This document shows positions 1,960 through 28,317 of a stretch of 28,684 bases of DNA, one piece after another (positions within the stretch are counted from its first letter, which is position 1; each line of letters starts with the position of its first letter). The notes under the pieces were generated by a model, which worked only from the letters and a program-made list of their open reading frames with translations, did no database searches and was not told where the DNA came from. Made by a program: the position numbers and the translations under genes. The stretch covers positions 1-28,684 of IMG/VR virus record IMGVR_UViG_3300013108_000113. One strand, written 5' to 3'. The stretch is from a virus.

Positions 1960-4107
1960 ATGTTAAACATAGTATGTACAAGCAAACCGTGTGATGGTTT
2001 ATTTTATTATAGTTATGAATACTGTTCACACCTAAACGAAAAAGGAATACGAGCACAAGTATACGTAGTAACTCATCGTGACTTTACTTCTGGTGATTAT
2101 ACAGAATCTATTAATGACAAATATATTCATTGTGAGAATATAGTATTTAACAATGATTATATTGAAGATGGTTGCACATCATTGATTCTAGGTAGAAGTA
2201 TGATGACTCTTGCTCATATGGCATGGAATGATTATAGACCAGTACAACAAGAATCACTTAAGAAATTATTTGGTAATAACGTTATTTCTGTTTACTCAGA
2301 AAATCATCCGAAGAAATATCCTAAAGCTCTAAAATTCTTTAAACCAAAAAAGGTTATTGATTTATGTGATACTGATGTTTATCCAAAAGGTGTTGGTGCA
2401 CACTTCGAAAAGATTATACATTTCCCTATATACAAAGAAGTTGAAGAAGATATTCAATTCGATCATTTATTCTTAGGCACAAATCCAGAGTATTATGAAA
2501 GTATAGAAAAAATAATAAGTGATTATCCCGATCATGGTATATTAACTTATCATCAAAATTACATAAACTTTGAGAATAACAATCTTAAATCTCCTGTTCC
2601 AAATCTATTAGGTAAATTCAAAACATATGTTTATACTAAAGACACATTTGATCCTGCACCAAGATTATTTCAAGAAGCAAGATGGCTTGGTAAAGAGATC
2701 ATTTATCATCGTAAAAATCCTACAAAGGATGGTGGTTACTGGTATTGGAAGAGAGGATTAAAGCAACAAGATTTAGAACCAATATTTGATGCACTTGATG
2801 AACTCGATGGTAAAATTAAATTAGAGACTCAATTAGTTAAAACAAATGTAACACAAATAGGTTCTGTAGAACAAGCCGATAATGTAGACTTTTATGAGGA
2901 TAGACTAGAATTACTTAATCAAATAAATGATGAATTTAATCATCACTTAGATTGGGGAACATCTAAAGGCGAAAGAGTTTGGTTTTGTAGTATGCCATAT
3001 CGAACACCATTTAGACACAAAGATGGTAAGTACTCACCGTGTAGTATTGGTAAAAAATCAGAAAAGAAATATGATTCAATAGAAGATTGGATGACAAGTG
3101 AAGAATTAAACAATATTCGCAAAGATATGTTAAACTTAAATGACTATGTATCTGATGGATGGTCAGAAATGGAAATACATTCAATGGGTATTTCTTATAT
3201 AGGCAAATATTGTACAGCATGTGTTAATGCTGAAAGACGTGAAGTAATCTCAAAGAGAATATCATCTAATCATCAGTATCAAGATCTATATAGAAATAAA
3301 TGGGATTCTGTTATAAATTCTGCCACAAAAATAATAAGAGGCCAAGAATATAAGATTGAAGGCAGAATGCTTGAAGTTGAAGTATGGGATGATTCTCAAT
3401 ACGATCAAATTATAGACATATCTGAAAAAATTCTAAAAATAAATTATAATGATGGACCATCATTTGAATTAATCAAAGGATTAGTCGATAAAAAACAAGC
3501 AAAGGAAATAGAATTAAGAATTGAGCTTGATAATCGTATATTAGATGGTGTTGAAGACGAGCAAGCAAAGTTTTTATATTTTGTTCCGTATTTTAAAAAG
3601 GTTATAATAGATGTAGCGATAGATGGAATTGGAGTATATAATAATTATTTAAATAGAACTAGCGATTATAAAATTATTAAAAAACGTATAGACGAACTTT
3701 CACGATATGAAAATGTTGTTATTCATTTACATTCTAAAGTAAATTTCTTAAGTGTATTACGCTTATACGAGATTCAATCTTTCTTAGGAAAATATAATCA
3801 TTACTGGTTACCGGACAACGAACCAAGTGTGATGAAATGTAATAACTTACCACATATAGTTAAATCTAAACTTATTCAAAAATATGCAAAGGGAAAGGCA
3901 GTAAATCTTAAAGGCATTGCTGATATTCTTAAACAACCTGAAGAAGAAGACTTTAGCAAGGAAAAACTATATAAATACTTAATGAGCATAGATGATAAAT
4001 ATAAAGGAACAGAGTGGGAAATGAATTTATTTGAAATATACCCAGAACTCAAATCCGAATACTTTTATCTAACCCATAAACCAAAAAATAAAAGAGGTAA
4101 AAAATGA
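1960..4107 (+). CDS. glycosyltransferase-like protein fused to a degenerate twitch/radical-SAM domain
   Basis: There are two parts in 715 residues. Residues 1-290 look like a GT-B-type glycosyltransferase; the clearest block is FDPAPRLFQEARWLGKEIIY (230-249), a motif shared with phage sugar transferases. Residues 330-705 align by eye with the two radical SAM proteins encoded downstream: a twitch/SPASM-like section with Cys343, Cys361, Cys418 and Cys421, then IDGIGVYNNYLNRTSDY (554-570), VNFLSVLRLYE (594-604), and a shared end YKGTEWEMNLFEIYPEL (681-697). Where the relatives carry CX3CX2C and GGEP, this protein has EVEVWDDSQYDQI (472-484) and no GGEP, so it cannot bind the SAM-cleaving iron-sulfur cluster in the normal way. 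It is likely a scaffold or pseudoenzyme partner joined to a transferase. It is first in the plus-strand run, 28 bases past a late promoter. Confidence 0.7.
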   Translation: MLNIVCTSKPCDGLFYYSYEYCSHLNEKGIRAQVYVVTHRDFTSGDYTESINDKYIHCENIVFNNDYIEDGCTSLILGRSMMTLAHMAWNDYRPVQQESLKKLFGNNVISVYSENHPKKYPKALKFFKPKKVIDLCDTDVYPKGVGAHFEKIIHFPIYKEVEEDIQFDHLFLGTNPEYYESIEKIISDYPDHGILTYHQNYINFENNNLKSPVPNLLGKFKTYVYTKDTFDPAPRLFQEARWLGKEIIYHRKNPTKDGGYWYWKRGLKQQDLEPIFDALDELDGKIKLETQLVKTNVTQIGSVEQADNVDFYEDRLELLNQINDEFNHHLDWGTSKGERVWFCSMPYRTPFRHKDGKYSPCSIGKKSEKKYDSIEDWMTSEELNNIRKDMLNLNDYVSDGWSEMEIHSMGISYIGKYCTACVNAERREVISKRISSNHQYQDLYRNKWDSVINSATKIIRGQEYKIEGRMLEVEVWDDSQYDQIIDISEKILKINYNDGPSFELIKGLVDKKQAKEIELRIELDNRILDGVEDEQAKFLYFVPYFKKVIIDVAIDGIGVYNNYLNRTSDYKIIKKRIDELSRYENVVIHLHSKVNFLSVLRLYEIQSFLGKYNHYWLPDNEPSVMKCNNLPHIVKSKLIQKYAKGKAVNLKGIADILKQPEEEDFSKEKLYKYLMSIDDKYKGTEWEMNLFEIYPELKSEYFYLTHKPKNKRGKK

Positions 4108-4769
4108 CACAATTAGAATTGTTAGATAAAAGAAGACACATTATGAAATTTTCTGATGATAATATTCCACCAAAATCTGTAATAGAAGATGTATTGTGGA
4201 AATCATGGAAAGTAACACCATCAAAAAATAGCTTTATGCCATATCATGTAAATGTATTAGGCCCAGATAAAGTAGAAGAGAAAAAAGCTATATGGCAAAA
4301 ATCTCAAAATAATAATGATACTCAAAATACAAAAAACTTTGGAGCTCCTAATCCTGTAGGTAATAATTTATTCTTTGAACATCTATCATCTACTCCATAT
4401 CTTTTAGTTTTTTCACAAAGAGTATGCGAGCCAAATGGACTCATAGCTAAAAACGTAGAAGCAGGTGCATACTATCAACAAATGCATGAAGATGAAGCTG
4501 ATGGAAATCAACAAGCTGTTGGTATAGAAGTTGGTATGTTTCATTCTAACCTAACTGCATTTGCCTTAGAAGCAGGATTAGACACATCGTGTATTCTTTG
4601 TTTTCCAAGTGATAGATCAAGTTGGACAGATATGGATTTTGTAGAAGGCCATGTTCTTTTACTTATGAGTATTGGATATTCTGAATTAGCAAGAAGAGAC
4701 TTTTTAACTGAAGCAGACTCAGCATTAGATAAAAAACCAGAGCCAGAAGAAGTAATTCGCTGGATATAA
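4104..4769 (+). CDS. nitroreductase-family flavoprotein
   Basis: The N-terminus LLDKRRHIMKFSDDNIP (Arg10-Arg11) and the block TPSKNSFMPYHVNV (38-51) match the FMN-phosphate and isoalloxazine contacts of the nitroreductase family; AFALEAGLDTSC fits the later helix around the flavin. Members are usually dimers that use NAD(P)H to reduce or oxidise small substrates, and some act as dehydrogenases in natural-product pathways. At 221 residues it has full family length. Its ATG overlaps the preceding stop (ATGA), so it is probably translationally coupled to the fusion gene. A second nitroreductase lies at 8532, after the two radical SAM genes. The substrate is unknown. Confidence 0.82.
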   Translation: MTQLELLDKRRHIMKFSDDNIPPKSVIEDVLWKSWKVTPSKNSFMPYHVNVLGPDKVEEKKAIWQKSQNNNDTQNTKNFGAPNPVGNNLFFEHLSSTPYLLVFSQRVCEPNGLIAKNVEAGAYYQQMHEDEADGNQQAVGIEVGMFHSNLTAFALEAGLDTSCILCFPSDRSSWTDMDFVEGHVLLLMSIGYSELARRDFLTEADSALDKKPEPEEVIRWI

Positions 4770-4806: not shown

Positions 4807-5406
4807 ATGGAACTTGAACCAATCGTTGCAGTATTGTTAATTGATTTTGAAGGGCATCCTGCTTTATCTGATGATGAAGTATTAAATAATCTTCGCTTTT
4901 CATATTTAAAATCATTAATATTTAATCCATTACCTGATAAAACAGATCCACTTAATGGATTTGTAAGAGGGCATAAATTTATATTTATTTCTGATCATGA
5001 TCCATATCAACCAAAGATAAATGAATTATATAACATGTCTGAAGCTGAAGGTTTTCATGAATGGATAATTATTCCACCCGAGTCTAAATTAAGCCCCCAT
5101 GAATTAAATGATTTAATAAACGACAAAGGTTATTATATACATAATATTATTGCTGGAGGATGTAATACAGCCGGATGTGTTATGAATAGTAGAACATATT
5201 CAGCTGTTCCATGGGCTAAAGCAGATTTTCCTATACAAATATTCCTTCCTATGTGTGCTGATTACCAATTTGGTGGTGCAACTACATATGAATCACAAAT
5301 GACGGCTATATGCAACCTTTTTAATGGATTAAAAGAAACTGAAACTATAGATACTTGTAAGGTTGTATCTAATATATGGGAGTTAAAACTAGACACAGAT
5401 GAGTAA
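4807..5406 (+). CDS. isochorismatase-like cysteine hydrolase (divergent)
   Basis: The 199-residue protein fits the isochorismatase-like fold. VAVLLIDF places Asp13 at the end of strand 1. PPESKLSPHEL supplies Lys94. IHNIIAGGCNTAGCVMNSRT places Cys124 after the turn that normally carries the cis-peptide. Asp, Lys and Cys at this spacing are the catalytic triad of the family, whose members hydrolyse amides such as nicotinamide or N-carbamoyl compounds, or the vinyl ether of isochorismate. Overall similarity is weak, so the fold call is by motif. No Shine-Dalgarno sequence precedes the ATG, but a sigma70-like -10 ends 5 bases upstream. Its 3' end overlaps the next gene by 8 bases. A carbamoyltransferase later in the run makes a carbamoyl or amide substrate conceivable, but this is inference. 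Confidence 0.55.
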   Translation: MELEPIVAVLLIDFEGHPALSDDEVLNNLRFSYLKSLIFNPLPDKTDPLNGFVRGHKFIFISDHDPYQPKINELYNMSEAEGFHEWIIIPPESKLSPHELNDLINDKGYYIHNIIAGGCNTAGCVMNSRTYSAVPWAKADFPIQIFLPMCADYQFGGATTYESQMTAICNLFNGLKETETIDTCKVVSNIWELKLDTDE

Positions 5407-6982
5407 AGATAATGAACCAATAGATTACGTAGACGAATGGAATGAACTTCCAAAGTTTATGACACGCAATGGTCCAGGTGACCATGAATTTGTAATATCT
5501 CCACTTGATGGTAAAGTTGATACATCATCTTGGTTTGTAGATCAGCTTACAAATGAAGTGGGTGATAATACAGGACCATGGAATTATAATCCAGATGTAC
5601 TTAAAGAAGGATCTATAGCTCAAATGTCAAAAGACCAAGAAATATTCTTTTGCGATATTCCATTTGGGCAAATATACACTGCGATGGGTGGTGAATATGC
5701 AGCATGTTGTTTTGGTGCAGAAGCAAGTGGTAAAGATGGATTGCCACATAATACTGTATATAATACTACATTATTAGAATGGATGGAAGAAGGCGAATAT
5801 ATGAATAATATTCGTAAAGAAATGTTAGATCCAAATTCAGATTATGAGTGGGTAAAAAAGACATGTAAGAGATGTATAGCTGATGAACACCGTTATGGTA
5901 GATCTAGAAGAACCGCTTGTATGAAAATTCATAGTAATGACCAAACATATTGGGACAAGATTGATTATACTGCTCGTATGTTTAAAGCCACAGGTGAATT
6001 TAAATTAGAACAAAGAGTATTTGAAGTTCAATTAAAAGTTTATGGTGATGAGTGTAACTTAGATTGTTATATGTGTATGCACAATAATTCATCTATTCGC
6101 CAGAAAGTTGCATTAGAAGGTGTGTGGAATCAACCTATATGGGATATGTCAGCTTGGAAAGTTCCATTAGATAATGAAGGCCAACCAGTAACTGAACTTG
6201 ACGGTTTAGATCCTTTAGTCAATGAAAAATCAAACTTCGAAGGTGATAACGTAGAATCTATGATAGAACAAACTGTTGCTATAGCTCCATATATTAACAG
6301 TATTAAAATTATCGGCGGTGAGCCTCTCATTATGAAAAAGCACTATGAGTTATTAAATAGATTGATAGAAGTAAATGAAGCTAAAAATATTACAATTAAA
6401 TATCAAACAAATCTTACAGAAACAAAAGCTGGTAAACATAATATATTCGACTATATACCACACTTTAAACTTGTTTGCATGGTAGCATCTGTTGATGGTG
6501 TAGGCCCGGTGATTGAATACATGCGAAGAAGAACCGATTGGAATAAAGTAATAAGGAATACCGAATATTGTAGAGAATACGATAATACCAATGTAGACTT
6601 TAATGGTTTAGTTTCTTTTCTAAGTGTAATGAGATTTTATGAAGTAATAGATTTTTGTTTAGAAACAAAAAGAACAACAAAGGATGGCAAAGAAGAACCA
6701 TTAATTGATGCAATAAATTGGGCATTATTAGAAACACCAAAACATTTAAGAGTAAATAATTTACCAGAAAAAATTAAAAAAGATTTAATACCTAAATACG
6801 AAAAATTCCCTGATATTCAATTTGCACTTAAAATGGAACCTGAACCAGATGTAGATATTCAAGATGTTTTTGATTATTTACTCAAAGGAGATGAGTATTA
6901 TACAGGTACTAAATGGGAAATGCATTTATTTGATGTGTTCCCAGAGCTAAAAGAATATTATATAAAACCAGAAGATAGATAA
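5399..6982 (+). CDS. twitch/SPASM-first (permuted) radical SAM protein, copy 1
   Basis: Two domains appear in unusual order over 527 residues. The first (about 80-165) is a twitch/SPASM-like cluster domain with Cys85, Cys103-Cys104, Cys156 and Cys159, ending CKRC. The second is the radical SAM core with CNLDCYMC (Cys219, Cys223, Cys226: CX3CX2C), which binds the 4Fe-4S cluster that cleaves S-adenosylmethionine, and the SAM-binding GGEP at 306-309. In most SPASM or twitch enzymes the accessory domain follows the core; here it precedes it, as in the family annotated as twitch domain-containing radical SAM proteins. A shared tail, YTGTKWEMHLFDVFPEL, closes the protein. It overlaps the hydrolase gene by 8 bases and the next paralog by 1 base (TAATG). 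The substrate is unknown. Confidence 0.85.
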   Translation: MSKDNEPIDYVDEWNELPKFMTRNGPGDHEFVISPLDGKVDTSSWFVDQLTNEVGDNTGPWNYNPDVLKEGSIAQMSKDQEIFFCDIPFGQIYTAMGGEYAACCFGAEASGKDGLPHNTVYNTTLLEWMEEGEYMNNIRKEMLDPNSDYEWVKKTCKRCIADEHRYGRSRRTACMKIHSNDQTYWDKIDYTARMFKATGEFKLEQRVFEVQLKVYGDECNLDCYMCMHNNSSIRQKVALEGVWNQPIWDMSAWKVPLDNEGQPVTELDGLDPLVNEKSNFEGDNVESMIEQTVAIAPYINSIKIIGGEPLIMKKHYELLNRLIEVNEAKNITIKYQTNLTETKAGKHNIFDYIPHFKLVCMVASVDGVGPVIEYMRRRTDWNKVIRNTEYCREYDNTNVDFNGLVSFLSVMRFYEVIDFCLETKRTTKDGKEEPLIDAINWALLETPKHLRVNNLPEKIKKDLIPKYEKFPDIQFALKMEPEPDVDIQDVFDYLLKGDEYYTGTKWEMHLFDVFPELKEYYIKPEDR

Positions 6983-8535
6983 TGAAACATATGACCAAAG
7001 GTGGCCCAGGAGATAAATTTCTGGGCAACGGTAAAGTAGATACAAGTAAATGGTTTGAGAGCACTCGTAACTTAGAACAAGAAATTAAAGATGGTGATAT
7101 TTGGTTTTGTTCTGCACCATTTCAATTATTATATACACACACGGATGGTGAGCTAGCTCCATGTTCTTGGGCCGCTGCCCAACAAGGTCCTAATATTAAA
7201 AATGTTAGTATTCTAGAATATTTTCAAAATGATAACGTTCTAAATAAAATACGTAAAGAAATGACTACACCTGGGTCTGATCTTAAACAAACTAATTTTA
7301 CATGTTATAATTGTAGACACCAAGAAGAATTATATGGTCGATCGAGGCGCCAAGCCTCTATGAAAATACAAACAAATGATAAAATTCTTTGGCCTAAAGT
7401 ACGAAATTCTGCAGAAGCTTTTATTAAAGACGGAAGGGTACATTTACAAGATAGAATATTTGAGGTACAAATAAAAGCCTTTGGTAATCAATGTAATTTA
7501 GATTGTTATATGTGTATTCCATATGATTCTACTGTTCGTTTAAAAACAATGAATTCAAAAGAATTAAAAGAGGAAAACATATTCTCAGATTATTCTAAAA
7601 CTAAATTAAACTTACCGTCGTCCGCAAAACTTGATGATGTAATAAGTCAAATTGTTCATCTTGCACCTTACATATACAATTTAAAATTAATTGGTGGTGA
7701 GCCATTAGTAATGAAGAAGTTCTATACATTATTAGAAAAAATAGTAAAGACTGGTCATGCTAAACATATTATGCTTAAGTACCAAACAAATATGTCTGTA
7801 TTAGAATTTGACAGGCATAAAGTATCAGATTTTATTCCGGAATTTAAGTTATTTGAATTTACAGTATCGCTAGATGGAATTGAGAAAGAAAATGATTATA
7901 TAAGGCGTAGATCTAGTTGGTCTAATGTACTTCACAATATGCAATATGTAAGTATGTTTCCAAATGTAAATGTAAATATAAATGGAACTATATCATTCTT
8001 ATCTGTACTTCGTTTTTATAGATTAATAGAATGGGCAAAGGAGAATGGAGATATAATACATCAAATTAATTGGTCAAACATACGTGGTCCTGCACGAATA
8101 TGTGCTAATGTATTACCACAAAAATTAAAAGATGAACTTATTCCAAAATATGAAGGATACCCCGATATACAAAATGTTTTAAAAGAAAGTAATCACGGAT
8201 TTACCCCGCAAGATGCCTTAGATTACTTAATTATGTTTGATAATAAATATAAAGGTACTAAGTGGGAAATGAATTTATTTGATGTATATCCTGAATTAGA
8301 AGAATTTTATAAACCAGGAATACCAAAAAGAGATGCAAACTTTAAAAATGATATTCATGTTATTAATGAAGATAATAATATACCACATCCAGAAAAACAA
8401 GAGGTAATTTCATCAAGAGGATATTATTACATAACTTCACGTCTTTCATGGTTAGGTATACCTGTGTATAAAGATCAGTGGTATAAACAACAACAAAATA
8501 TGATAAATTGGTTTAACAAAGGAGAAAAAAGATGA
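6982..8535 (+). CDS. twitch/SPASM-first (permuted) radical SAM protein, copy 2
   Basis: This is a paralog of the preceding gene (517 residues) with the same layout. The twitch-like cysteines are Cys43, Cys61, Cys108 and Cys111. The core motif CNLDCYMC is at Cys171, Cys175 and Cys178, and GGEP is at 238-241. The blocks RRRSSW and SFLSVLRFYRLIEW and the tail YKGTKWEMNLFDVYPELEEF are also shared. It differs by a C-terminal extension of roughly 75 residues after the shared tail, rich in aromatic and charged residues (SRGYYYITSRLSWLGIP), and by lacking the doubled Cys in the twitch segment. The tandem copies probably arose by duplication and then diverged, which suggests two different radical steps or a heteromeric complex. 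The next gene starts inside its last codons after a good GGAG site at 8521. Confidence 0.85.
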   Translation: MKHMTKGGPGDKFLGNGKVDTSKWFESTRNLEQEIKDGDIWFCSAPFQLLYTHTDGELAPCSWAAAQQGPNIKNVSILEYFQNDNVLNKIRKEMTTPGSDLKQTNFTCYNCRHQEELYGRSRRQASMKIQTNDKILWPKVRNSAEAFIKDGRVHLQDRIFEVQIKAFGNQCNLDCYMCIPYDSTVRLKTMNSKELKEENIFSDYSKTKLNLPSSAKLDDVISQIVHLAPYIYNLKLIGGEPLVMKKFYTLLEKIVKTGHAKHIMLKYQTNMSVLEFDRHKVSDFIPEFKLFEFTVSLDGIEKENDYIRRRSSWSNVLHNMQYVSMFPNVNVNINGTISFLSVLRFYRLIEWAKENGDIIHQINWSNIRGPARICANVLPQKLKDELIPKYEGYPDIQNVLKESNHGFTPQDALDYLIMFDNKYKGTKWEMNLFDVYPELEEFYKPGIPKRDANFKNDIHVINEDNNIPHPEKQEVISSRGYYYITSRLSWLGIPVYKDQWYKQQQNMINWFNKGEKR

Positions 8536-9350
8536 ACGCAAATGAGTCGTTAGAAAAAACAGAATGGAGAGACAAAATACGTGCATCTATTGACGTATCC
8601 AAAGTAGCACAAAGAAACTGGGATTTAACTCGTAGTATTTCAGACGAGGATTTAAATACATTAATTTATGCTGCAAGCAATAGCCCAACAAAGCAAATGG
8701 AAACACATTATGCTTTACATGTGCTTACACACCCAGCAAAGGTTAGAGAGATTTATGACCATACGAAAAAATTTACATTATTTCCAAATGATGCAACAGA
8801 CTTCAGTCAAGTTGAATCTGATATGTTTTCTGAAGGATCAGAAGGAGAGTTTGTACAAAACGATGATTATTCTGTAAAGAATTCTCAAATTCTATCGAAT
8901 GCTATGTTTGTTTATTGTGAAGATATGGGTGTTCCACGCGGAGGAACTCACTATATGGCACAAAAAGAAGGTGCGTCACCACATGTTAAATCACTTTATG
9001 AAGAGCAAGTTGATTTCTCGATTGGAATATCGGTTGGTCAATTATTGCTTTCAGCTGCGATGATGGGATATAAAACTGGTATTTGCTCAGCACTTGAATC
9101 TCAAGAAATAGGTGAACACTTACCAAGAGATAAAGATGGTCTAGTATATAATCCTAAATTAGTTATTGGCATTGGGTATGAAAATATAGGAGTTGATAGA
9201 ACATTCCATCAAGAAACATATAATAGAGATATACCTCATGAAAATCGTAGATCTGGACCACTTGATGAAAAGTTTCGTTTTCCTACATTCGAAGGTAAGT
9301 TAGCTGATGGTAAAAATTCTCGAGTATATATAAATGGAGTATTACAGTAA
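8532..9350 (+). CDS. nitroreductase-family flavoprotein, second copy
   Basis: The 272-residue protein has the family pattern RNWDLTRSISDEDLNTLIYAASNSP, split as RNWDLTRSI (28-36) and LIYAASNSPTKQMETHYAL (44-62), standing for the usual Arg-rich start and the P-S/N flavin-binding segment. GISVGQLLLSAAMMGYKTG corresponds to the helix and loop around the flavin in the C-terminal half. It is longer than the first nitroreductase (221 residues), has an inserted acidic segment around residues 85-105 and a C-terminal tail, and is only distantly related to it. The ATG at 8532 follows GGAGAAAAAAG. It sits between the radical SAM pair and the split radical SAM pair, so a redox partnership is plausible. 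The substrate cannot be inferred. Confidence 0.75.
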   Translation: MNANESLEKTEWRDKIRASIDVSKVAQRNWDLTRSISDEDLNTLIYAASNSPTKQMETHYALHVLTHPAKVREIYDHTKKFTLFPNDATDFSQVESDMFSEGSEGEFVQNDDYSVKNSQILSNAMFVYCEDMGVPRGGTHYMAQKEGASPHVKSLYEEQVDFSIGISVGQLLLSAAMMGYKTGICSALESQEIGEHLPRDKDGLVYNPKLVIGIGYENIGVDRTFHQETYNRDIPHENRRSGPLDEKFRFPTFEGKLADGKNSRVYINGVLQ

Positions 9351-9748
9351 TGAGCTCATCTGAGGCAGCAATGAATAAACAAAAAGAAGATCAAGAAGCA
9401 CAAGAACTTGATATTGGTGAATTTAAATTAAAGATTGAACCACGATGTTTAACCTTTAATCCGAAATCTTACCATAAACCTGCTGCTTATACATCTGATG
9501 GATTTATGCTTCCATGCTGTTGGTTAGATGACCCAAAAAATGATTTTGGTGTAGAATATTTTGGTATGAAAGAGGAGCATCTTCGAGTAAGAAATGTTGA
9601 TAAACTTGAAGACATATTTAAATCTGAAGAATGGAATCATTTCTTTTGGACATTACTACATGACCAAAAACACGCAATGAAGCATTGTAAATATAAATGT
9701 GGTAATCTAAGGAAAGATAACAATTTATATATGACAGAAACAATATAA
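9350..9748 (+). CDS. free-standing twitch/SPASM-like iron-sulfur domain protein
   Basis: There are 132 residues and no radical SAM core. Cys33, then DGFMLPCCW (Cys56-Cys57), then CKYKC (Cys113, Cys117), separated by a segment IFKSEEWNHFFW, follow the layout of SPASM/twitch auxiliary-cluster domains: an aromatic or acidic lead, pCC, a helix with a Trp, and a closing C-x-x-x-C. The same pattern forms the N-terminal domain of the two permuted radical SAM proteins upstream. It is directly followed, after 4 bases, by a radical SAM core that lacks such a domain, so the two probably form one enzyme made of two chains. The N-terminus (1-22) is charged and likely disordered. The start TAATG overlaps the previous stop. 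Confidence 0.6.
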   Translation: MSSSEAAMNKQKEDQEAQELDIGEFKLKIEPRCLTFNPKSYHKPAAYTSDGFMLPCCWLDDPKNDFGVEYFGMKEEHLRVRNVDKLEDIFKSEEWNHFFWTLLHDQKHAMKHCKYKCGNLRKDNNLYMTETI

Positions 9749-9752
9749 TGAT

Positions 9753-10571
9753 ATGGGATTTTCATATGTTAATGATAACGGAGAACTTGTAATGGCAAGA
9801 TTTACTGAACTAAAACCTGATGATAGGATAGCAGATTGGTATGCACATAACGAAGTATGGGGATCACCTAATATTGATTCATCGCATCGTTGTATTCTAA
9901 GATGCCCACAATGTTTAAGACAAAAGAAAGAGGGTGGACCACGTATTAAAAGATCATATGATCTTGAAGTGAAAGACTTTAAAAAGATTATAGATTACTT
10001 TGAACACTGTGTTACATTCTGTGGACAAATATCAGATCCTATATACAATCCAAACTTTTTAGAATTCTTAAAGATATTAGATGGAACTGGAAGAGGTGTA
10101 AGAATCGCTACTGCTGGTCAATCACAAAGAAATGTACATACTCGCGAATGGTGGGAAGAAGCATTTACTTATGGTATGAATGAGAATGCATGGTACTTTG
10201 GTGTAGATGGTATCGATAAGAAGAGTGAACTATATCGTATTGGTTCTGATCGTGATGCGGTATGGGAGACAATGAGATTAGGTAAATCTATGGGTGCAGT
10301 TATTGTTTGGCAATTTATCGTATTTGGTTATAATGAACACGAAATAGAAATAGCAAAACAAATGGCAGCAGATGAAGGTTTTACTTTATTATTAATTAAG
10401 ACAAATAGAGGATTTGATCCTAAAGCAAGAAATGTACGTGATAGTATGAAAGATATATATAATAATTTTCCAGCACCAAGCAAGGAAAATACTGTAAAGA
10501 AAATTAAGAATGAAGAATACTTTAATGTTACAGAATCAATGAAAATATGGAGAAACACTAGGAATACATAA
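9753..10571 (+). CDS. radical SAM core protein, probable partner of the upstream twitch protein
   Basis: The CX3CX2C motif is CILRCPQC (Cys47, Cys51, Cys54), preceded by the short strand NIDSSHR. FCGQISDPIYNPNFLEFL (89-106) stands where other family members have the G-G-E-P or GxxGDP SAM-binding motif; the form with SDP resembles the radical SAM families with F-x-G-x-x-G-D-P. VDGIDKKSELYRIGSD (about 150-165) is the common SxDG-type strand. The 272-residue protein holds only the core, with no C-terminal cluster domain, and the 132-residue twitch/SPASM-like protein lies immediately upstream. The start at 9753 has a poor Shine-Dalgarno; ATG at 9748 in another frame is not used. The next gene is coupled by TAATG. 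Confidence 0.8.
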   Translation: MGFSYVNDNGELVMARFTELKPDDRIADWYAHNEVWGSPNIDSSHRCILRCPQCLRQKKEGGPRIKRSYDLEVKDFKKIIDYFEHCVTFCGQISDPIYNPNFLEFLKILDGTGRGVRIATAGQSQRNVHTREWWEEAFTYGMNENAWYFGVDGIDKKSELYRIGSDRDAVWETMRLGKSMGAVIVWQFIVFGYNEHEIEIAKQMAADEGFTLLLIKTNRGFDPKARNVRDSMKDIYNNFPAPSKENTVKKIKNEEYFNVTESMKIWRNTRNT

Positions 10572-11452
10572 TGGAAATAACTTATAATGGAATAACGATA
10601 CCGTTTTTTGATACCGAAGAATGTAAAAATTTAGATAATGTGAAGCTTGGTGAGAATGGATTACCTGAGCAAGTTTTAGTATCACTCTCAGGCGGATGCG
10701 ATTCAGCATCTGCTTTATACCTTTGCTTAACGCATTTCCCAGATATTGAATGGTTACCATATACTTGTAGAGACTTAAATGCTCCAGGTGATGCAGATTC
10801 AGCCATTATGTTTATTGAAAAAATGCAGAAAGAATTTCCACATGCTAACTTACAAGACATACAAGTATTTGAATTTGACGATAAAGATCCTAAGCATTTT
10901 GCTGATGCGCAATATTGCATAGATCATTATGAAAGATATAAAGATATGACTGTTGTTGGAATGGTAAAGGTATTATTAATTGATCGTATTACCACAAGCC
11001 TTATGCAAAAATATGATAGGCCATTACGATTTGATGGCATGTCAAAAAATCCTTCTGAAGCAGAGATGATAGCTGGTGGTTTCTTAGATGTAAGTGAACC
11101 ACGAAGAACTCATGAAGAGATTTGGCCAACAATGGTTAGGCAAATATATCAACCATTTATTAATGTTGATAAAAAATTTATTGCTGATATTTATTTCCAG
11201 CATCCGTTTTTATTAGAAGAAATTTATCCTCATACTAAATCATGTACTGGTACAGCATGGTACACAAATAATTTTACGAGAGTATGTGGTAAATGTTTTT
11301 GGTGTCATGAAAGAAACTGGGCATTTGGTGATGAACTATATCCAATTAAGAACTTACCAAAAATAGATAAACCACCTAAAGGTTACGATGGATCTTTAAG
11401 ATCTTTACCTATTCCAAAAGTTGTTAGAGATGGAAAAATTACTAATTTGTAG
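10571..11452 (+). CDS. QueC-like PP-loop ATPase with zinc-finger end
   Basis: SLSGGCDSAS (residues 38-47) is a PP-loop, the ATP pyrophosphate-binding motif of N-type ATPases that adenylate a substrate before amide, nitrile or thio transfer. Near the C-terminus, Cys225 followed by CGKCFWCHERNWAFG (Cys239, Cys242, Cys245) reproduces the zinc site of QueC, the 7-cyano-7-deazaguanine synthase, which reads C...CGxCxxC-x-x-R. The middle of the protein differs from typical QueC and it is longer (293 against about 230). No QueD, QueE or FolE gene is in the window, so queuosine or archaeosine precursor synthesis is not supported here. It may activate a carboxylate in the pathway of this cluster. It sits between the split radical SAM pair and two SGNH genes. 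Confidence 0.72.
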   Translation: MEITYNGITIPFFDTEECKNLDNVKLGENGLPEQVLVSLSGGCDSASALYLCLTHFPDIEWLPYTCRDLNAPGDADSAIMFIEKMQKEFPHANLQDIQVFEFDDKDPKHFADAQYCIDHYERYKDMTVVGMVKVLLIDRITTSLMQKYDRPLRFDGMSKNPSEAEMIAGGFLDVSEPRRTHEEIWPTMVRQIYQPFINVDKKFIADIYFQHPFLLEEIYPHTKSCTGTAWYTNNFTRVCGKCFWCHERNWAFGDELYPIKNLPKIDKPPKGYDGSLRSLPIPKVVRDGKITNL

Positions 11453-12365
11453 CGGAGACAGTTTTACTGATCCAATATTTAGATCTGCTCCTCATCCTGA
11501 AATGGATACATCTTGGCCTAAGTGGCCAGAGATTATGGCTAAAGAGCTAGGTATGAGATGTATTAATTTAGGAAGATCTGGATCAGGTAATGAATACATA
11601 TATTCTTCATTACAAGATGCTGTACTTAAAATAAAAGATAAAAGCCGAATAGGTTTAATAGTTGCTGCTTGGTCTCAAGGGTTTAGAAGAGATTTTCAGA
11701 TATGTGAAGGAGGAAAATCCGGTCCATTTAGTTGGCAAAGTGAATGGAATGACGGTATGGGAATGCGTGATCCTTTTGCCTTTGGTGGTGAGACGCATTA
11801 TATGGATAAGGAACATTATTTTGAAAGTGAAGGAAACTTATTGTTTTGGCAAGAAGAATGGATAAAAAATGCTATAGATGTTAAAGGATGGTCTAATGAA
11901 AGAGTTGATGCATATGGTGATATACAAGGTTGGGTAAGAAGAAGTATGAGACACTTCATGAATTTACAAATGATGTGTGAACGATATGATATACCTTATT
12001 TGCAAACCCAAATGATACCTTTATACATAGATTATATAAGAGGATTACCACCTACCGAGGAAGAAATTAAACAAGGTTTAAGGGAACCAACTGATAATTT
12101 ACAGTATAACGGTAATAAAGATAAAGCAAAAGAAGAAGTTAATAAAATTATATTAGAATATGATGAAGCAATAGATGAAAAAAGATTTTTTGGTTGGCCA
12201 ATTTCAAGAGAACTAGGCGGGTTTACTTTTAATTTAGCGTATCTTGGTGGATTTCATGATCCGGATAATGATTTGCAAATATCAGAAATTGATACACACC
12301 CGAGTAAATTAGGTCACGAAACAATAGCAAAAGTTTTATTGGAGAAATATCATAGTGTTATATGA
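11430..12365 (+). CDS. SGNH/GDSL hydrolase-like protein, copy 1
   Basis: CSGDSFTDP near the start gives the nucleophile block (Gly9-Asp10-Ser11), GRSGSGNEY gives the block II Gly and block III-like Asn54, and IDTHPSKLGHETIA near the end gives the Asp288-X-His290 pair. These are the landmarks of SGNH hydrolases, which remove or transfer acyl groups on sugars and lipids. The protein has 311 residues, longer than its neighbour because of an insertion of about 50 residues after RRDF. I chose ATG at 11430; TTG at 11421 is in frame too. The gene begins inside the last 23 bases of the PP-loop gene. No signal peptide is seen, so action in the cytoplasm is likely. An O-acetyl transfer role on a cluster product is possible but unproven. 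Confidence 0.68.
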   Translation: MEKLLICSGDSFTDPIFRSAPHPEMDTSWPKWPEIMAKELGMRCINLGRSGSGNEYIYSSLQDAVLKIKDKSRIGLIVAAWSQGFRRDFQICEGGKSGPFSWQSEWNDGMGMRDPFAFGGETHYMDKEHYFESEGNLLFWQEEWIKNAIDVKGWSNERVDAYGDIQGWVRRSMRHFMNLQMMCERYDIPYLQTQMIPLYIDYIRGLPPTEEEIKQGLREPTDNLQYNGNKDKAKEEVNKIILEYDEAIDEKRFFGWPISRELGGFTFNLAYLGGFHDPDNDLQISEIDTHPSKLGHETIAKVLLEKYHSVI

Positions 12366-13134
12366 GAATAATAAAAAATATTTAATAGTAAGCGGAGATA
12401 GCTTTACTGATAAAAATATGAGATCAGCAGCATATCCAGATATGGATACATCTTGGCCTAAATGGCCAGAGTTATTAGGTAAAAAATTAAATATGGAAGT
12501 AATTAATTTAGCATATTCTGGTTCAGGTAATGAATATATATTTTCTACATTACAAGATTGTGTTATGGATATACCTAAAGAACGAATAGGATTAGTTGTT
12601 GCCGCTTGGTCTCAAGCACAAAGAAGAGATTTTCAAACAGGATATAAAAATGGTACTAGAAGCTGGGGTCAAGAAAGGGTAGATTCGTGTGGTGATTTAA
12701 TGTATTTTACTCGTAGATCTTTAAGATATTTTTTAGCTTTTCAACATATGTGTGAAAGATATGATTTACCATATTTTCAAACTCAAATGATAGATCTATA
12801 TAAAGACTATATAGATGGATTAGCTCCTACTGAACGTGAAGTAGTAATTGAAGGTAAAGATCTTTTTAAAGATGGAATGACATATCCTGGTGATAAGAAA
12901 AGAGATGAAGAAGAATTAATACAACTCATTTTAAGTTATGAAAATAAAATAGATACAAGTAAATTTATTGGTTGGCCAATTACAAGAACTCTTGGTGGAT
13001 GGCCAATAAATCGTGGCGTAATAGGATGGAGTGTAGAGCAAGAAGCACCTTATGTTATAGATGAGCATGATAATCATCCGAATGCAGCAGGACAAGAATT
13101 AATAGCGGAGTATTTTTATGACTGGTTGGGATAG
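12355..13134 (+). CDS. SGNH/GDSL hydrolase-like protein, copy 2
   Basis: This is a close paralog of the preceding gene: SGDSFTD (Ser16), MDTSWPKWPE, YSGSGNEYI, GLVVAAWSQ, RRDFQ, and the end block HDNHPNAAGQELIA with Asp239 and His241. At 259 residues it lacks the insertion found in copy 1. The start is GTG at 12355, with GGAG at 12341-12344 giving good spacing; no ATG lies in frame before the first motif. It overlaps copy 1 by 11 bases, and the next gene starts inside it. The tandem pair, sharing many identical segments, points to duplication within the phage lineage with a change of substrate or formation of a heterodimer. Confidence 0.68.
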   Translation: MLYENNKKYLIVSGDSFTDKNMRSAAYPDMDTSWPKWPELLGKKLNMEVINLAYSGSGNEYIFSTLQDCVMDIPKERIGLVVAAWSQAQRRDFQTGYKNGTRSWGQERVDSCGDLMYFTRRSLRYFLAFQHMCERYDLPYFQTQMIDLYKDYIDGLAPTEREVVIEGKDLFKDGMTYPGDKKRDEEELIQLILSYENKIDTSKFIGWPITRTLGGWPINRGVIGWSVEQEAPYVIDEHDNHPNAAGQELIAEYFYDWLG

Positions 13135-19852: not shown

Positions 19853-20488
19853 AGTTGTTTTAGTTTTTTTAGCTTTATTTACGTTTTTCATTATAGCTTT
19901 TTTCTTATCAGCTTTATGTTCAGCTGCTTGTTTATCTAAAGCTTTTTGGTTTTCAACTGGATCTGTTACTGGATCAGTATCACTAAGAGTGTTTCTCACA
20001 CCTGTGATAGCAAATGCATGTTGTAAGACTTCAATTTTATTTGAACTCTTTCTTAATGCAGTCTTTGCTTCAACATTATCTGACTCACGTATTTCTTGTA
20101 ATTCAAATAAGGCTAACTTTAATGCAAATAAATGATCTTCATTATCCATGTTAGTAAAGATATTGTCTACAATTGTAGGGAATAACTTTGTTTTTGACAG
20201 GTTAGTTTCCTGCTCTAGTACACCAGTGTCCGATAAAACCTGTTTAGCTGTTGCTACAAAAGCTTCACTCTCAGCTTTTTTAACATTCCATGTTTCTTCA
20301 TGAATGCTGTCCATCGTAGTCAAATTCATAAGAGCTTTAAAATCCGCTTGTGATTCATCAGCTTCAATGACCATTGGTGTTAGTTCTAACTCACCTGTAT
20401 GATCCATGTTCAGTAAAACTTCAAGGTTCTTCCTGTCCTGGTCAATGAAGTGAGCTGATACAAATGTATTTTTAGTAATTAAACTCAT
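19841..20488 (-). CDS. putative virion-associated protein with Lys-rich tail
   Basis: I do not recognise this 215-residue protein by function. The N-terminus MSLITKNTFVSAHFIDQD is followed by mostly helical, acidic sequence, and the last 35 residues are Lys-rich (KADKKKAIMK, KAKKTKTTKKK) and probably disordered or nucleic-acid binding. It is translationally coupled to the preceding 304-residue gene (TAATG) and has a strong GAGGAAAG site before its ATG at 20488. Its place as the last gene of the fibre block, behind a late promoter, suggests a virion or fibre-accessory role. It ends at 19841, directly against the end of the plus-strand gene run. Confidence 0.65.
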   Translation of the reverse strand: MSLITKNTFVSAHFIDQDRKNLEVLLNMDHTGELELTPMVIEADESQADFKALMNLTTMDSIHEETWNVKKAESEAFVATAKQVLSDTGVLEQETNLSKTKLFPTIVDNIFTNMDNEDHLFALKLALFELQEIRESDNVEAKTALRKSSNKIEVLQHAFAITGVRNTLSDTDPVTDPVENQKALDKQAAEHKADKKKAIMKNVNKAKKTKTTKKK

Positions 20489-21402
20489 TATGCTTTCCTC
20501 GCTTTTAAGTAATATGTATTAATTGTTGTTGCCGAACCAGCCGGAAACTCTTGTGTTCGATAGTCATCTCCACCCACTTCTCTTTGTGCATATGTCGAAC
20601 TATTCAATTTAGTGTCTGTCATACCAGAACCTAAGTTGGTTCCAGACCCGCCAATAGCGTATCTGATTTTGTGTGAAGTTAAGTTCACTGCTACATAACG
20701 TATCATCTCTTTTATCAAAGCATCAAATTCTGCTTCAGTATATTCTTTAATATTATTATCACCATTAATATAACATGGTTTAGCAGTATATTCTGTTTCA
20801 GTACCATTTGCTCTGTGAAGATAAAAGTTAGTAATTGTAGTTGGTTGGTCTTGTGTTTCAGTAATACCACCTGCCGTATATGCACTCGCATCTGCTCGTG
20901 TATCTGTAAATACCGCTGTTGTTGAAACATTAGTATATCCAGATGGAGCTGAAGTAGATGTGCTTATTTGATAAGGTAATGCTGCAATAATTGCATCAAC
21001 AAGAGTATCTGCATATGTATCAAACATCTCTTGTGGAGTCATAGCTTGTAAGTTATTGCTTGCATTTACATATACTGGCATTCTTGTTGTAGTGCCATTA
21101 TCATTAAAGGTTAATGAACCTGTTTCTGTTTCAGATATCTTATCATACGATACTGTTACAGTGCTTACATCAGGAGTATCACCTGCAGATCTAAAGCTAC
21201 TTGCATGAGTCGTAGCTGCGCCTGCTTGAAGTCGTGTATCACTCATAGCATCTAAAGTACCACTACTACCAACAACAGACAATGTTACTGACTGATCTGC
21301 TAAGTATAACCATTTTGCACGGTTAATAATCGCAGTCTTGTCGTCAGCTGACATCTCCTTTAAGTTATTTGAATCTATTTTTACTGGTGTTCTTGCTGCC
21401 AT
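20488..21402 (-). CDS. putative structural protein made of three related domains
   Basis: The 304-residue protein contains three tandem repeats of about 100 residues. Each starts with a short helix (NNLKEMSADDKTAI, NNLQAMTPQEMFDTY, NNIKEYTEAEFDAL), continues with a long amphipathic segment, then a DTR/DTK block (MSDTRLQAG near 53, FTDTRADAS near 165, MTDTKLNSS near 262), and ends with a beta strand rich in Thr and Tyr (TNFYLHRANG, INTYYLKARK). I know no enzymatic function for it. Repeated beta-rich domains plus its position between fibre genes suggest a virion or fibre-associated protein. AAGGAT at 21420-21415 serves as ribosome site. A late promoter box lies 29 bases upstream of the start. 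Confidence 0.7.
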   Translation of the reverse strand: MAARTPVKIDSNNLKEMSADDKTAIINRAKWLYLADQSVTLSVVGSSGTLDAMSDTRLQAGAATTHASSFRSAGDTPDVSTVTVSYDKISETETGSLTFNDNGTTTRMPVYVNASNNLQAMTPQEMFDTYADTLVDAIIAALPYQISTSTSAPSGYTNVSTTAVFTDTRADASAYTAGGITETQDQPTTITNFYLHRANGTETEYTAKPCYINGDNNIKEYTEAEFDALIKEMIRYVAVNLTSHKIRYAIGGSGTNLGSGMTDTKLNSSTYAQREVGGDDYRTQEFPAGSATTINTYYLKARKA

Positions 21403-21407
21403 AGTAT

Positions 21408-21415
21408 TATTTATA
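21408..21415 (-). promoter_or_regulatory. second TATAAATA box, very close to a start codon
   Basis: An exact late-promoter octamer on the minus strand, only 6 bases from the ATG at 21402 and overlapping the ribosome site. It is too close to serve as the main promoter and is probably secondary or chance; the box at 21431-21438 is better placed. Confidence 0.2.
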
Positions 21416-21427
21416 TCCTTTAGTTAA

Positions 21428-21468
21428 GTCTATTTATACTCATCTGTAGTAGAAAAGTATAAATAGAC
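21428..21468. repeat. perfect 12-base inverted repeat with a late promoter box in each arm
   Basis: GTCTATTTATAC at 21428-21439 and GTATAAATAGAC at 21457-21468 are exact reverse complements around a 17-base loop. No T run follows on either side, so it does not look like an intrinsic terminator. The right arm carries a plus-strand TATAAATA (21458-21465) pointing into the fibre genes in antisense. Confidence 0.8.
21431..21438 (-). promoter_or_regulatory. T4-type late promoter box before the 304-residue structural gene
   Basis: TATAAATA on the minus strand, 29 bases upstream of the ATG at 21402, in the only real gap (77 bases) of the structural block. It sits in one arm of a perfect inverted repeat. 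Confidence 0.6.
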
Positions 21469-21479
21469 GTTGTTAATAT

Positions 21480-23840
21480 TTATGCTCCTGCTGTATGACA
21501 AGTTTTCACTGTAGTACCAGCCGCGTTAATAATCAATAGTGTTGATAGTGTCTTTAACTGAGCTGAACCAATAGCATCATCTGCCATCTTCGCTTCAGTT
21601 ACTTGGTCATCAGCAATATGTGCTGTGTCAATAGAACCATCAGTATAATGTTCACTATTAATAGCATCGTCCGCAATCTTAGCACCAGTTATAGCATCCG
21701 CTGCGATCTTAGCAGTAGTAACCTGTAGATCTCCAAGGTGAGCCGTATCAATTGAACCATCAACATAGTGTTCACTATCGATTTGGTCATCAGCGATCTT
21801 AGCATTTGTTACTGAATCTGCTGCTAAATGAGCTGTATCAATTGAACCATCAACATATTGATCTGAATCAATAGAGTTAACACTCATATGAGCTAAATCA
21901 ATTGCACCATTAGCAATATGTTCACTATCAATAGCATCATCAGCAATCTTAGCACTTGTTACTGCATCTCCATTAATCATTGCTGTCTCAACAGCATTTG
22001 CTTGAATTGTTGCAGCACCTGTTACATTGCCTGAACCATCAAATGAAGCTGATGTCCATACAACATCTCCTGTCATTCCAATTGTTCTACCAGTTGCTAG
22101 AGCAGTCGCAGTATCAGCATTACCTGTAATATTACCTGTTACATTACCCTCTAAGTTAGCAACTAATGTGCCAGCTGCATAACCAGTACCAGAAGTATTA
22201 ACTGTTGTAGTAGGTGCAGCTTGGTTGTCTTTAAAGATCTTCCACTTACCTGAATCAGAAGCATCTCTAAAGATACCACCATAAAGGTCTTGTGAACCTG
22301 ATGTATCGTACAATCCATATAAACCAATATCAACTGCATCAGCCGAACCATTGTTTGTTGCTAAATGTAATAATGGATCAGCAACTTCTACTGTTGTTGA
22401 TGATACTGAAGTAGTTGTACCAGATACTGTTAGGTTACCAGCAATTGTTACATTGTTTGGTAAACCAACTGTGATTGTTCCTGAAGACTCAGCAACTTCA
22501 ATCTCGTTGGCAGTTCCAGAGAAAGTAACCGTACCACCAAGAGCTGTAGCTGTAGAGTTCGAACCATCACTTACAGTAATAGTTGAGTTAGCAAGTTTAG
22601 CGTTAGCAATTGAACCTGCTAAGTGAGCATTATCAACTGAACCATCTACATAATGCTCTGAATCAATCTGGTCATCTGCAATCAATGCATTAGTAATTTG
22701 ATCAGCTGCGATATGAGCAGTTTGAATTGAACCATCGATATATGCATCACTATTAACACTGTTTGGTGCTAGATGTTCTGCATCAACAGAGTCTGCAACT
22801 AAGTGCTCGCTATCAATTTGGTCATCGGCAATTAATGCTCCAGTGATTTGATCTGCAGCAATATGTGCTGTATCAATTGCACCATTAGCAATATGCTCCG
22901 AGTTAATTGCATCATCAGCAATCTTCGCTCCAGTTACCGCATCCGCTCCAAGAGCTGTAGTATCTACTGAACCTGCTGCGTAATGCTCTGCATCAATTGA
23001 ATCAGCAGCTAAGTGCTCTGAATCAACTGCGTCATCGGCAATCTTAGCACCTGTAATTGCATCTGCTGCTATCTTTGCTGTTGTAACATTTAAATCAGTA
23101 ATTTTAACTGTAGTAACTGAATCAGTAGCAAGGTGACTTGCGTCTACTGAACCGTTTACTAACTCAGCTGAATCAACTGTATTCGCTGCAAGGCTTACAA
23201 CACCTGCATTCGTCATTGTTACATCACCACTTAGTGCAGCAGCAGTAAATCCTGTGCCATCACCAATTAATAATTGAGTATCTGCAACAGCTTTAGCTGA
23301 AACAACACCCGAACTATTTGCATCCCTTACTAAGACTGTGTTAGCAGCTTGGTTAGCGATCTTAGCTAATGTTACTTGAGCATCAGCAATATGTGATGTA
23401 TCGATTGAACCATCAACTAGTTCTGATGAATCTACCGTGTCAGCAGCTAGTGATATTACACCACCATCTGTCATCGTAGCATCACCTGACATCACATTGT
23501 CGATCCACATTGATGTTCCCGTGTCATATAATAACATTGAACCATCAGCTGCAGATGTAATGTTTACATCGTTATCTTCAGCAAGTGTATTCTCAGCACC
23601 AACTTGAGCATCTACATAAGCTTTGACGGATTGCTGTGTAGGTACCTTTGTGGCACTATTTGTTGACATGTTGTCTTCATCAATAACAAATCCAAGACTT
23701 GCTGTTGTTGATAGACCTGTATCGACTAACGTACCAGCACTATCTGGTAATGTAATCGTTCTATCTGTAGATGAGTTAGGAGAAGCAATTGTAAATACAC
23801 CTGTTCCGCCCGAGTCACCTGAAAATTTTATTTTTGACAT
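21480..23840 (-). CDS. tail-fibre-like protein with decapeptide repeats
   Basis: This 786-residue protein is low in Cys and Trp and rich in Ala, Asp, Ser and Thr. Residues 1-80 include a collar-like start (FTIASPNSSTDRTITLPDSAG) and the module DEDNMSTNSATK...QQSVKAYVDAQV. Residues 221-420 are about twenty tandem decapeptides of the type ADDQIDSEHL / AADQITGALI; a second block covers roughly residues 620-765. Between them lies a module of about 130 residues (TVGLPNNVTIAGNLTVSG to NLEGNVTGNITGN) shared with the neighbouring 1372-residue fibre. Such repeats form trimeric beta-structured shafts in phage fibres. GGAGAG precedes the ATG at 23840. The end ILIINAAGTTVKTCHTAGA-like segment is short, with no obvious receptor-binding domain. 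The protein probably takes part in host contact. Confidence 0.85.
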   Translation of the reverse strand: MSKIKFSGDSGGTGVFTIASPNSSTDRTITLPDSAGTLVDTGLSTTASLGFVIDEDNMSTNSATKVPTQQSVKAYVDAQVGAENTLAEDNDVNITSAADGSMLLYDTGTSMWIDNVMSGDATMTDGGVISLAADTVDSSELVDGSIDTSHIADAQVTLAKIANQAANTVLVRDANSSGVVSAKAVADTQLLIGDGTGFTAAALSGDVTMTNAGVVSLAANTVDSAELVNGSVDASHLATDSVTTVKITDLNVTTAKIAADAITGAKIADDAVDSEHLAADSIDAEHYAAGSVDTTALGADAVTGAKIADDAINSEHIANGAIDTAHIAADQITGALIADDQIDSEHLVADSVDAEHLAPNSVNSDAYIDGSIQTAHIAADQITNALIADDQIDSEHYVDGSVDNAHLAGSIANAKLANSTITVSDGSNSTATALGGTVTFSGTANEIEVAESSGTITVGLPNNVTIAGNLTVSGTTTSVSSTTVEVADPLLHLATNNGSADAVDIGLYGLYDTSGSQDLYGGIFRDASDSGKWKIFKDNQAAPTTTVNTSGTGYAAGTLVANLEGNVTGNITGNADTATALATGRTIGMTGDVVWTSASFDGSGNVTGAATIQANAVETAMINGDAVTSAKIADDAIDSEHIANGAIDLAHMSVNSIDSDQYVDGSIDTAHLAADSVTNAKIADDQIDSEHYVDGSIDTAHLGDLQVTTAKIAADAITGAKIADDAINSEHYTDGSIDTAHIADDQVTEAKMADDAIGSAQLKTLSTLLIINAAGTTVKTCHTAGA
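21540..21995 (-). repeat. second block of decapeptide repeats in the same fibre gene
   Basis: About fifteen further units of the same period-10 pattern (DDAIDSEHIA, DGSIDTAHLA, DDQIDSEHYV, ADAITGAKIA) lie in the C-terminal third, separated from the first block by the shared module at 22121-22510. Confidence 0.8.
22121..22510 (-). repeat. fibre module A, copy in the 786-residue gene
   Basis: Encodes the segment from NEIEVAE through VGLPNNVTIAGNLTV, ADAVDIGLYGLYDTSGSQD, GKWKIFKDNQAAPTTTV to NLEGNVTGN. It aligns nearly residue for residue with the segment at 26101-26485 in the next fibre gene. Confidence 0.8.
22581..23180 (-). repeat. tandem 30-bp repeats encoding about twenty decapeptides
   Basis: Residues 221-420 of the 786-residue fibre run in register with period 10: positions carry I/V-D/T-S/T-x-H/K-I/L followed by A-D/A-D-x. 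Units such as DDQIDSEHLV, DDAINSEHIA, NGAIDTAHIA and ADQITGALIA recur. The DNA is diverged at third positions, so the repeats are old or selected at protein level. Confidence 0.85.
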
Positions 23841-26800: not shown

Positions 26801-27710
26801 AATGAAGCAATAACAGGAGTTGTAAGAGTCTTATTCGTTAATGTCTGTGAACCGGCAAGGGTAGCAACAGTAGAATCAATAGCAATCGAGATGTCATTAT
26901 CAGATACTGTTGTATCAATACCTGTTCCACCAGTAAAGTTTAATGTATCAGTGGCAAGAGCTACTGTATCATCAGAACCAGAATCAGCACCAACCGTTAA
27001 TGATGTTGTAATAGACGCAGTACTCGCTGCTGTAATTAAACCTTTAGCATTAACTGTAATAACTGGAATTGCTGTTGTAGAACCAAATGAACCTGTATTT
27101 GAATTAACTGTAGCAAGTGTTAATGCACCTGTATCAGCTAGAGTGGCATCGCCTGACATGACATTATCAATCCAAACTGAATTGCCAGTATCATAAAGTA
27201 ATAGAGAACCATCTGCTGGAGATGTTATAGTCGTATCATTTAATTCGGCAAGCGTATCTTCTGTTGCTATTTGAGCATCAACATAAGCTTTAATTGATTG
27301 TTGAGTTGCAAGTGCTGTTGCACTATCACTTGACATATTATCTTCATCATTAATGGCAGTAATACCATCAAGTAAATTTAATTCAGTAGATGTAGAAGTT
27401 AAGGCAACATTTTCATTAAATTTAGGAGATGTTAATGTTTTATTTGTAAGTGTTTGTGTACCTGCAAGAGTAGTAACTGTACCATCAATAGCAATTTGTA
27501 CGTTATTACCAGAAATAGTTGTATCAATACCTGTAGAACCACCGATACCTAATGTTTCACTATCTAAATCAATAGAGGCTGGACCACCTGAGTCAGCAGT
27601 AAAATCTAAATCTTGAGCTGTTACTTGTGCATCCACATAAGCTTTGATTGATTGTTGTGTAGCTAAATGTGTTGCTGAATTCGATGCGAGGTTATCCTCG
27701 TCTAATACTG
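23602..27710 (-). repeat. six dispersed copies of the DEDN...QQSxKAYVDAQ module across two fibre genes
   Basis: Copies lie near 23602-23680 (in the 786-residue gene) and near 25170-25250, 25531-25610, 26565-26650, 27269-27350 and 27624-27710 (in the 1372-residue gene). Each encodes about 28 residues that alternate an acidic segment with AT-QQS-KAYVDAQ. Spacing is irregular, so this is a dispersed, not tandem, family. Confidence 0.82.
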
Positions 27711-27978: not shown

Positions 27979-27980
27979 TG

Positions 27981-28235
27981 CTAAGCTCCCCCGCCGTCAT
28001 ATGTTATTATTACTGAATCATCGGAGTCGCCTCCATCTATAAGTACGTCACTATTCCAGTTTCCCATGTCTATTGTTTCTTGCGATGTAATGGCAAAAAT
28101 ATTACCATTACCATCTTTGGAATATAAAATTTGGTCAGTTACGTTAAGGGCTAACTCGCCTTGCTGGAGATCGCCTGCTACGGGTTTCTTTCCCGCAACC
28201 GTCGATTGCTTGATTTTTACTACTGTTCCTGCCAT
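27981..28235 (-). CDS. small fibre N-terminal-domain protein
   Basis: This 84-residue protein reads as a free-standing fibre or baseplate attachment domain: VKIKQSTVAGKKPVAGDLQQ, GELALNVTDQILYSKDGNG. The same pattern, GE-x-x-x-N/D-x-T/D-x-x-x-Y-x-x-DG, opens the 1372-residue fibre that starts 2 bases downstream. Proteins beginning in this way are widespread in marine T4-like phages, often as the first part of a long fibre. Here it stops after 84 residues with an acidic, Gly-rich end (DSDDSVIITYDGGGA). The start ATG at 28235 lacks a clear Shine-Dalgarno sequence. A late promoter box lies 49 bases upstream, so it leads the fibre operon. It may be a separate connector protein or the split-off head of a former longer fibre. 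Confidence 0.75.
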   Translation of the reverse strand: MAGTVVKIKQSTVAGKKPVAGDLQQGELALNVTDQILYSKDGNGNIFAITSQETIDMGNWNSDVLIDGGDSDDSVIITYDGGGA

Positions 28236-28283
28236 ATATATGCCATCTAATTGTTTAAGGTGATTATATAACCACCATGTACT

Positions 28284-28291: not shown

Positions 28292-28317
28292 ATATATTTA
28301 AACTCAATTCAAATTAA

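Follow-up and report, generated by a model that had tools for sequence, protein, structure and literature searches.

The gene at positions 1960-4107 (plus strand) of the window, the whole 28,684-nucleotide stretch of viral DNA analyzed here, encodes a predicted glycosyltransferase joined to a pseudoenzyme, a domain that is derived from a radical SAM enzyme and has lost its catalytic residues, as seen from its grouping with intact fusions (support 100/100) and from the loss of its motifs. The domain is homologous to radical SAM proteins encoded nearby, bears a deletion, keeps its auxiliary-cluster cysteines and has been under selection since the split from contig L001. The radical SAM half was damaged at least three separate times among the fused proteins, and intact copies are present elsewhere on the contig; the fold is predicted to be kept. 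The odds are about even (a probability of roughly 0.5) that the pseudo-domain is a kept, folded, non-catalytic accessory domain for docking, stability or substrate binding, with catalysis left to the intact copies.

Domain layout of the fused protein

The reading frame is open throughout and encodes 715 residues; all parts described here lie on the plus strand. Residues 1-290 (1960-2829) form a predicted GT-B (GT4-like) glycosyltransferase domain, an assignment supported by the fold. The AlphaFold2 model of this part has a pLDDT of about 93, and residues 1-286 resemble GT4/GT-B structures such as BshA (3mbo) and PimA (2gej) in VIA-align, with Z up to 14.9 (249-254 residues aligned, rmsd 3.9-4.1). 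The Pfam search gave no family match for the N-terminal half. D231 and E239 are invariant, and the arrangement D231-x7-E239 was found in 101 of 101 transferase homologues. The name glycosyltransferase, given in the initial annotation, is thus backed at the level of the predicted fold by the GT-B match.

A linker (residues 291-334, 2830-2961) follows, with low pLDDT at 288-307 and 331-338; in the alignments it is also seen in the intact fusions and partly survives in the stub of contig L049. The C-terminal half opens with an N-terminal twitch/SPASM-like part (residues 335-475, 2962-3384), recognized from cysteine conservation and invariant columns and carrying the auxiliary-cluster cysteines Cys343, Cys361, Cys418 and Cys421. 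Next is the remnant of a radical SAM barrel (residues 471-618, 3370-3813), with six strand-helix units predicted by DSSP on the AlphaFold2 model and compared with the model of an intact paralogue, RS1. The C-terminal helical part (residues 619-705, 3814-4074) is the most conserved stretch (BLAST, alignment and AlphaFold2 model).

Losses and retained residues in the radical SAM half

In BLAST, residues 335-709 match RS1 (5399-6982, plus strand) at E 3e-26 and RS2 (6982-8535, plus strand) at E 6e-26, which bears out the relationship to these two proteins noticed earlier. The same residues match the NCBIfam family N_Twi_rSAM (NF033640, twitch domain-containing radical SAM protein) at E 3e-27 and 95.7 bits, below the 170-bit cut-off, and chance cannot account for this level of similarity. 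RS1, which contains CNLDCYMC and GGEP, scores 271.5 bits, above the cut-off, and RS2 scores 282 bits; both are intact N_Twi_rSAM paralogues.

Cys343, Cys361, Cys418 and Cys421, correctly reported as retained, coincide with the four cysteine positions shared by at least 90% of 66 intact relatives, and all four are present in both the window and L001. The sole further cysteine past residue 335 is C627. No cysteine is found between residues 422 and 626, and the CX3CX2C radical SAM cluster motif is gone. This motif had been thought to be replaced by WDDSQYDQI, which is not the case: about 60 residues are deleted at a junction near residues 475/476 (3382-3387, plus strand), and WDDSQYDQI aligns with the segment downstream of the loop that leads into helix 1. 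The missing residues correspond to profile positions 154-212 and comprise the last part of strand 1, the complete CNLDCxMC loop, the helix after it and an insert; KxxGxxCNLDCxMC was among them. The SAM-binding motif GGEP, also noted earlier as absent, is reduced to NDGP at residues 497-500 (3448-3459, plus strand), about six residues past this site are missing as well, and the KYQTN strand end is altered in the alignment. The combined loss of the cluster loop, of GGEP and of the KYQTN strand end leaves no SAM site. The window protein keeps 46 of the 86 columns that are conserved in at least 90% of the 66 intact relatives; 16 are deleted and the rest are substituted. The alignment agrees with the initial annotation of a conserved body without the catalytic cluster, the barrel itself being retained in the AlphaFold2 prediction.

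Predicted fold of the pseudo-domain

The fold was taken from an AlphaFold2 model of the full-length window protein. RS1 was modelled too, and the models were compared by the order of strands and helices (DSSP), not superposed. The window strands at 471-475, 491-496, 518-523, 547-553, 586-594 and 613-618 have their counterparts in the RS1 strands at 208-212, 299-305, 332-337, 358-364, 397-405 and 438-443, and the helices between the strands are present in the window model as in RS1. The two models thus agree element by element over a predicted six-unit partial barrel and the C-terminal helices. A different fold of the C-terminal half, named earlier as an outcome that would contradict the proposal, is not seen, the six strand-helix units of RS1 being predicted here as well. 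Among the transferase matches, Foldseek with the full window model also returned viperin chains, with a probability of up to 0.97, and the RS1 model resembles radical SAM enzymes with Z up to 10.4. A sequence search found no solved structures related by sequence to the fused protein.

Relatives and origin of the fusion

Scans of viral contigs showed the transferase for the most part encoded on its own, with about 270-300 residues. Eight contigs (L002-L008 and L012) join it to an intact twitch radical SAM domain. In the window and L001, which have the deletion in common, its partner is the loop-deleted domain, in L009 a short remnant without the twitch or the start of the barrel, and in L048/L049 a stub, a tail of 49 residues. 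These scans found no other damaged fused copies, and no cellular homologues of the fusion were found among genome contigs. The intact fusions have the same domain order as the window protein and a largely similar gene neighbourhood; they keep CNLDC[HQ]MC and GGEP, whereas the window protein has neither. The transferase halves of the two groups are 72-88% identical and the radical SAM halves only 34-41%. Since many of the relatives have intact fusions, the fused protein began as two enzymes in one chain, and handing over a product is one of several possible roles that remain.

All fused radical SAM domains, whether intact or damaged, group in a single clade (support 100/100), and the transferase tree likewise unites the fused proteins with the L049 stub in one clade. 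The damaged copies as one clade were rejected on the transferase tree (AU p 2.5e-7 without the stub and 1.3e-5 with it), and with this a single origin of all dead copies, under the caveat of within-gene recombination. Given the single fused clade and the AU rejection, the history is most simply explained by one fusion and at least three later losses, although the gene has clearly recombined internally: the transferase half (1960-2829 versus L001 8001-8870) is nearly identical, with a dS of 0.024, against about 0.15 in the remaining gene, which points to recombination where the two domains meet.

Several other arrangements were observed. The intact fusion of L002 carries about 200 extra C-terminal residues (10299-10913), with a similar tail in L004, L005 and L007; this tail has no significant Pfam match. 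The SPASM-only protein, which has its own gene at 9350-9748 of the window, is joined to the transferase in L086 (645-1865) and L089 (8001-9221). Transferases carrying a tail occur in L075 (4244-5422), L078 (8001-9206) and L120 (8001-9275), the L078 tail showing weak likeness to ParB_N/GmrSD/DUF6551, all below the Pfam cut-offs. In L070 (6260-8491), L089 (12135-14471) and L061 (6840-8858), N_Twi_rSAM is fused to a QueC-like/PP-loop domain that precedes it and has about 290 residues, a second fusion type in the same enzyme family.

Gene neighbourhood

The stop of the fused gene is overlapped by a gene for a nitroreductase-family protein with conserved position (4104-4769, plus strand; PF00881, 4e-6). 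A conserved neighbour follows, encoding a 199-residue protein for which family searches gave no known family (4807-5406, plus strand), then RS1, RS2, a second nitroreductase-family protein (8532-9350, plus strand; PF00881, 3e-7), a SPASM-only protein, a radical SAM protein and a QueC-like protein. The order from the fused gene to the QueC-like protein is common to most intact-fusion contigs, and RS2 is missing from L001. The N_Twi_rSAM genes above the cut-off beside a damaged copy number one in L001, two in L009, one in L049 and two in the window. The SPASM-like and radical SAM genes of the window (9350-9748 and 9753-10571) are adjacent and separate, with reversed order in Mosig, and possibly represent a split radical SAM/SPASM enzyme.

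Further downstream are GDSL-like hydrolases, a DegT aminotransferase, a radical SAM protein, a carbamoyltransferase, a methyltransferase and a GT8-like protein. Two related GDSL/SGNH-like proteins are encoded in tandem at 11433-13134, with a copy number that varies among relatives. Tail-fibre-like genes lie past the sugar genes, and for one of them Pelagibacter phage Mosig gave the only match in the phage collection; long repetitive tail-fibre-like proteins are encoded on the minus strand at 20488-28683. In pelagimyophages the host-recognition cluster is reported to include glycosyltransferases and radical SAM cassettes, the glycosyltransferases presumably altering the O-chain of the host (PMC7029224). 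The setting corresponds to a pelagimyophage-like host-recognition cluster of a virus related to marine Pelagibacter viruses.

Selection and proposed role of the pseudo-domain

In the pseudo-domain the window differs from L001 by 28.5 synonymous and 22.5 nonsynonymous changes, a dN/dS of 0.167 (p 1.5e-9, neutral binomial) obtained from one contig pair only, which shows purifying selection since the two split. Pairs of intact domains gave values between 0.04 and 0.62. The branch leading to the pseudo-domains of the window pair is very long (2.14 changes per site) and dN/dS against L002 is 0.57, so the domain passed through a period of weak or altered constraint. The picture of rapid change at or after the loss, followed by constraint, rests on the single contig pair.

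The main rival, which is rather doubtful, holds that the gene is kept for its transferase half and that the radical SAM half is a passenger, redundant with RS1 and RS2 and eroding stepwise from loop deletion to short remnant to stub. It would account for three degrees of loss in separate lineages, for the long branch of the window pair and for the remnant of L009, where dN/dS (0.70) is not significantly below 1 (p 0.10), but it agrees poorly with the low dN/dS between the window and L001 and with the retention of the four twitch cysteines and the predicted barrel. A role as product carrier, the idea of the initial annotation, in which the domain binds the radical SAM product and hands it to the fused transferase, is considerably less probable. 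The single chain, the kept twitch and the predicted barrel would suit it, and the active fused version in the relatives could gain from channelling; however, the strand ends that hold SAM and substrate in intact enzymes are altered here (the KYQTN and GGEP sites), and L009 and L049 manage without the domain. Very little speaks for a domain that is still a radical enzyme, with SAM cleaved by the twitch cluster or by some other arrangement: some radical SAM enzymes are non-canonical, Dph1-Dph2 among them (PMC11048331), and four cysteines remain, but the cluster loop was lost together with GGEP and the end of the KYQTN strand. Assembly or local sequence damage in the window contig is least credible of all. 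In its favour, the full motif does occur in the nearest intact relatives (L002-L008 and L012), an outcome listed in the initial annotation as a refutation pointing to local damage. Against it, L001 has the same deletion with many differences elsewhere, for which reason an assembly artefact was rejected, and the frame is open throughout. The common deletion and the dN/dS of 0.167 mark a settled, lineage-specific loss and not damage private to the window.

The reading as a retained accessory domain is preferred because the independent contig L001 has the same deletion, the pseudo-domain evolved under constraint, and 4/4 auxiliary cysteines are present in the window and L001. It is further supported by the prediction of the six RS1 strand-helix units together with the viperin matches, by the single clade of intact and dead fused copies, by the failure of the dead copies to form one clade on the transferase tree, and by the persistence of intact N_Twi_rSAM genes on each contig with a dead copy. 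The fusions of the transferase to the SPASM-only protein in L086 and L089 support a working link between the transferase and radical SAM auxiliary parts. Counting against the accessory role are the long branch, the dN/dS of 0.57 against L002 and the losses in L009 and L049; these two lost even more and retained the gene, so the pseudo-domain is dispensable in relatives.

Under the accessory-domain reading, a glycosyltransferase of the sugar cluster would have become joined, in a single event, to a functional N-terminal-twitch radical SAM enzyme, and a deletion in the lineage of the window and L001 would then have removed the loop for the SAM-cleaving [4Fe-4S] cluster. Catalysis would probably fall to RS1 and RS2, the intact copies encoded by genes of their own. 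The pseudo-domain probably still holds an auxiliary [4Fe-4S] cluster and may bind the intact radical SAM proteins or their substrate, holding the transferase beside that chemistry. The fuller version is put forward tentatively: a selected pseudoenzyme domain with its auxiliary cluster, acting as docking, stability or electron partner for the intact paralogues in trans and tethering the glycosyltransferase in a phage sugar-modification pathway.

A domain with catalysis lost and auxiliary cluster ligands kept would help to separate the role of the twitch/SPASM cluster, usually approached by point mutation, from SAM cleavage. Related neighbourhoods provide a natural series of intact fusion, loop-deleted fusion, short remnant, stub and stand-alone transferase, in which each step can be compared, and phage sugar clusters are seen to build and dismantle multi-enzyme fusions.

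Comparison with known systems

GT4 enzymes of the GT-B fold such as BshA and PimA have the donor motif E-x7-E where the window transferase has D-x7-E; identity to them is about 10% and the window domain is smaller (290 residues). UDP-GlcNAc 2-epimerases likewise have the GT-B fold, with Z only slightly below the GT4 matches. The transferase is 54% identical to Mosig_00083 of Pelagibacter phage Mosig EXVC030M (MT647606), which has a similar sugar cluster beside tail fibre genes. Unlike the window fusion, Mosig_00083 is a stand-alone transferase of 288 residues, and no N_Twi_rSAM was found in the Mosig genome. A literature search, with most subscription journals outside it, found no paper on a radical SAM pseudoenzyme with a kept auxiliary cluster. 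In the Dph1-Dph2 radical SAM heterodimer, each subunit has iron-sulphur motifs that are important for keeping the dimer stable (PMC11048331); these are non-canonical radical SAM proteins unrelated to the window protein and serve as an analogy only. The closest known system is N_Twi_rSAM (NF033640), to which the window protein is homologous over the twitch, the barrel and the C-terminal helices, with the four twitch cysteines in common and the fold predicted to be kept. The window protein differs from this family in having neither CX3CX2C nor GGEP, in scoring below the cut-off and in being fused behind a glycosyltransferase.
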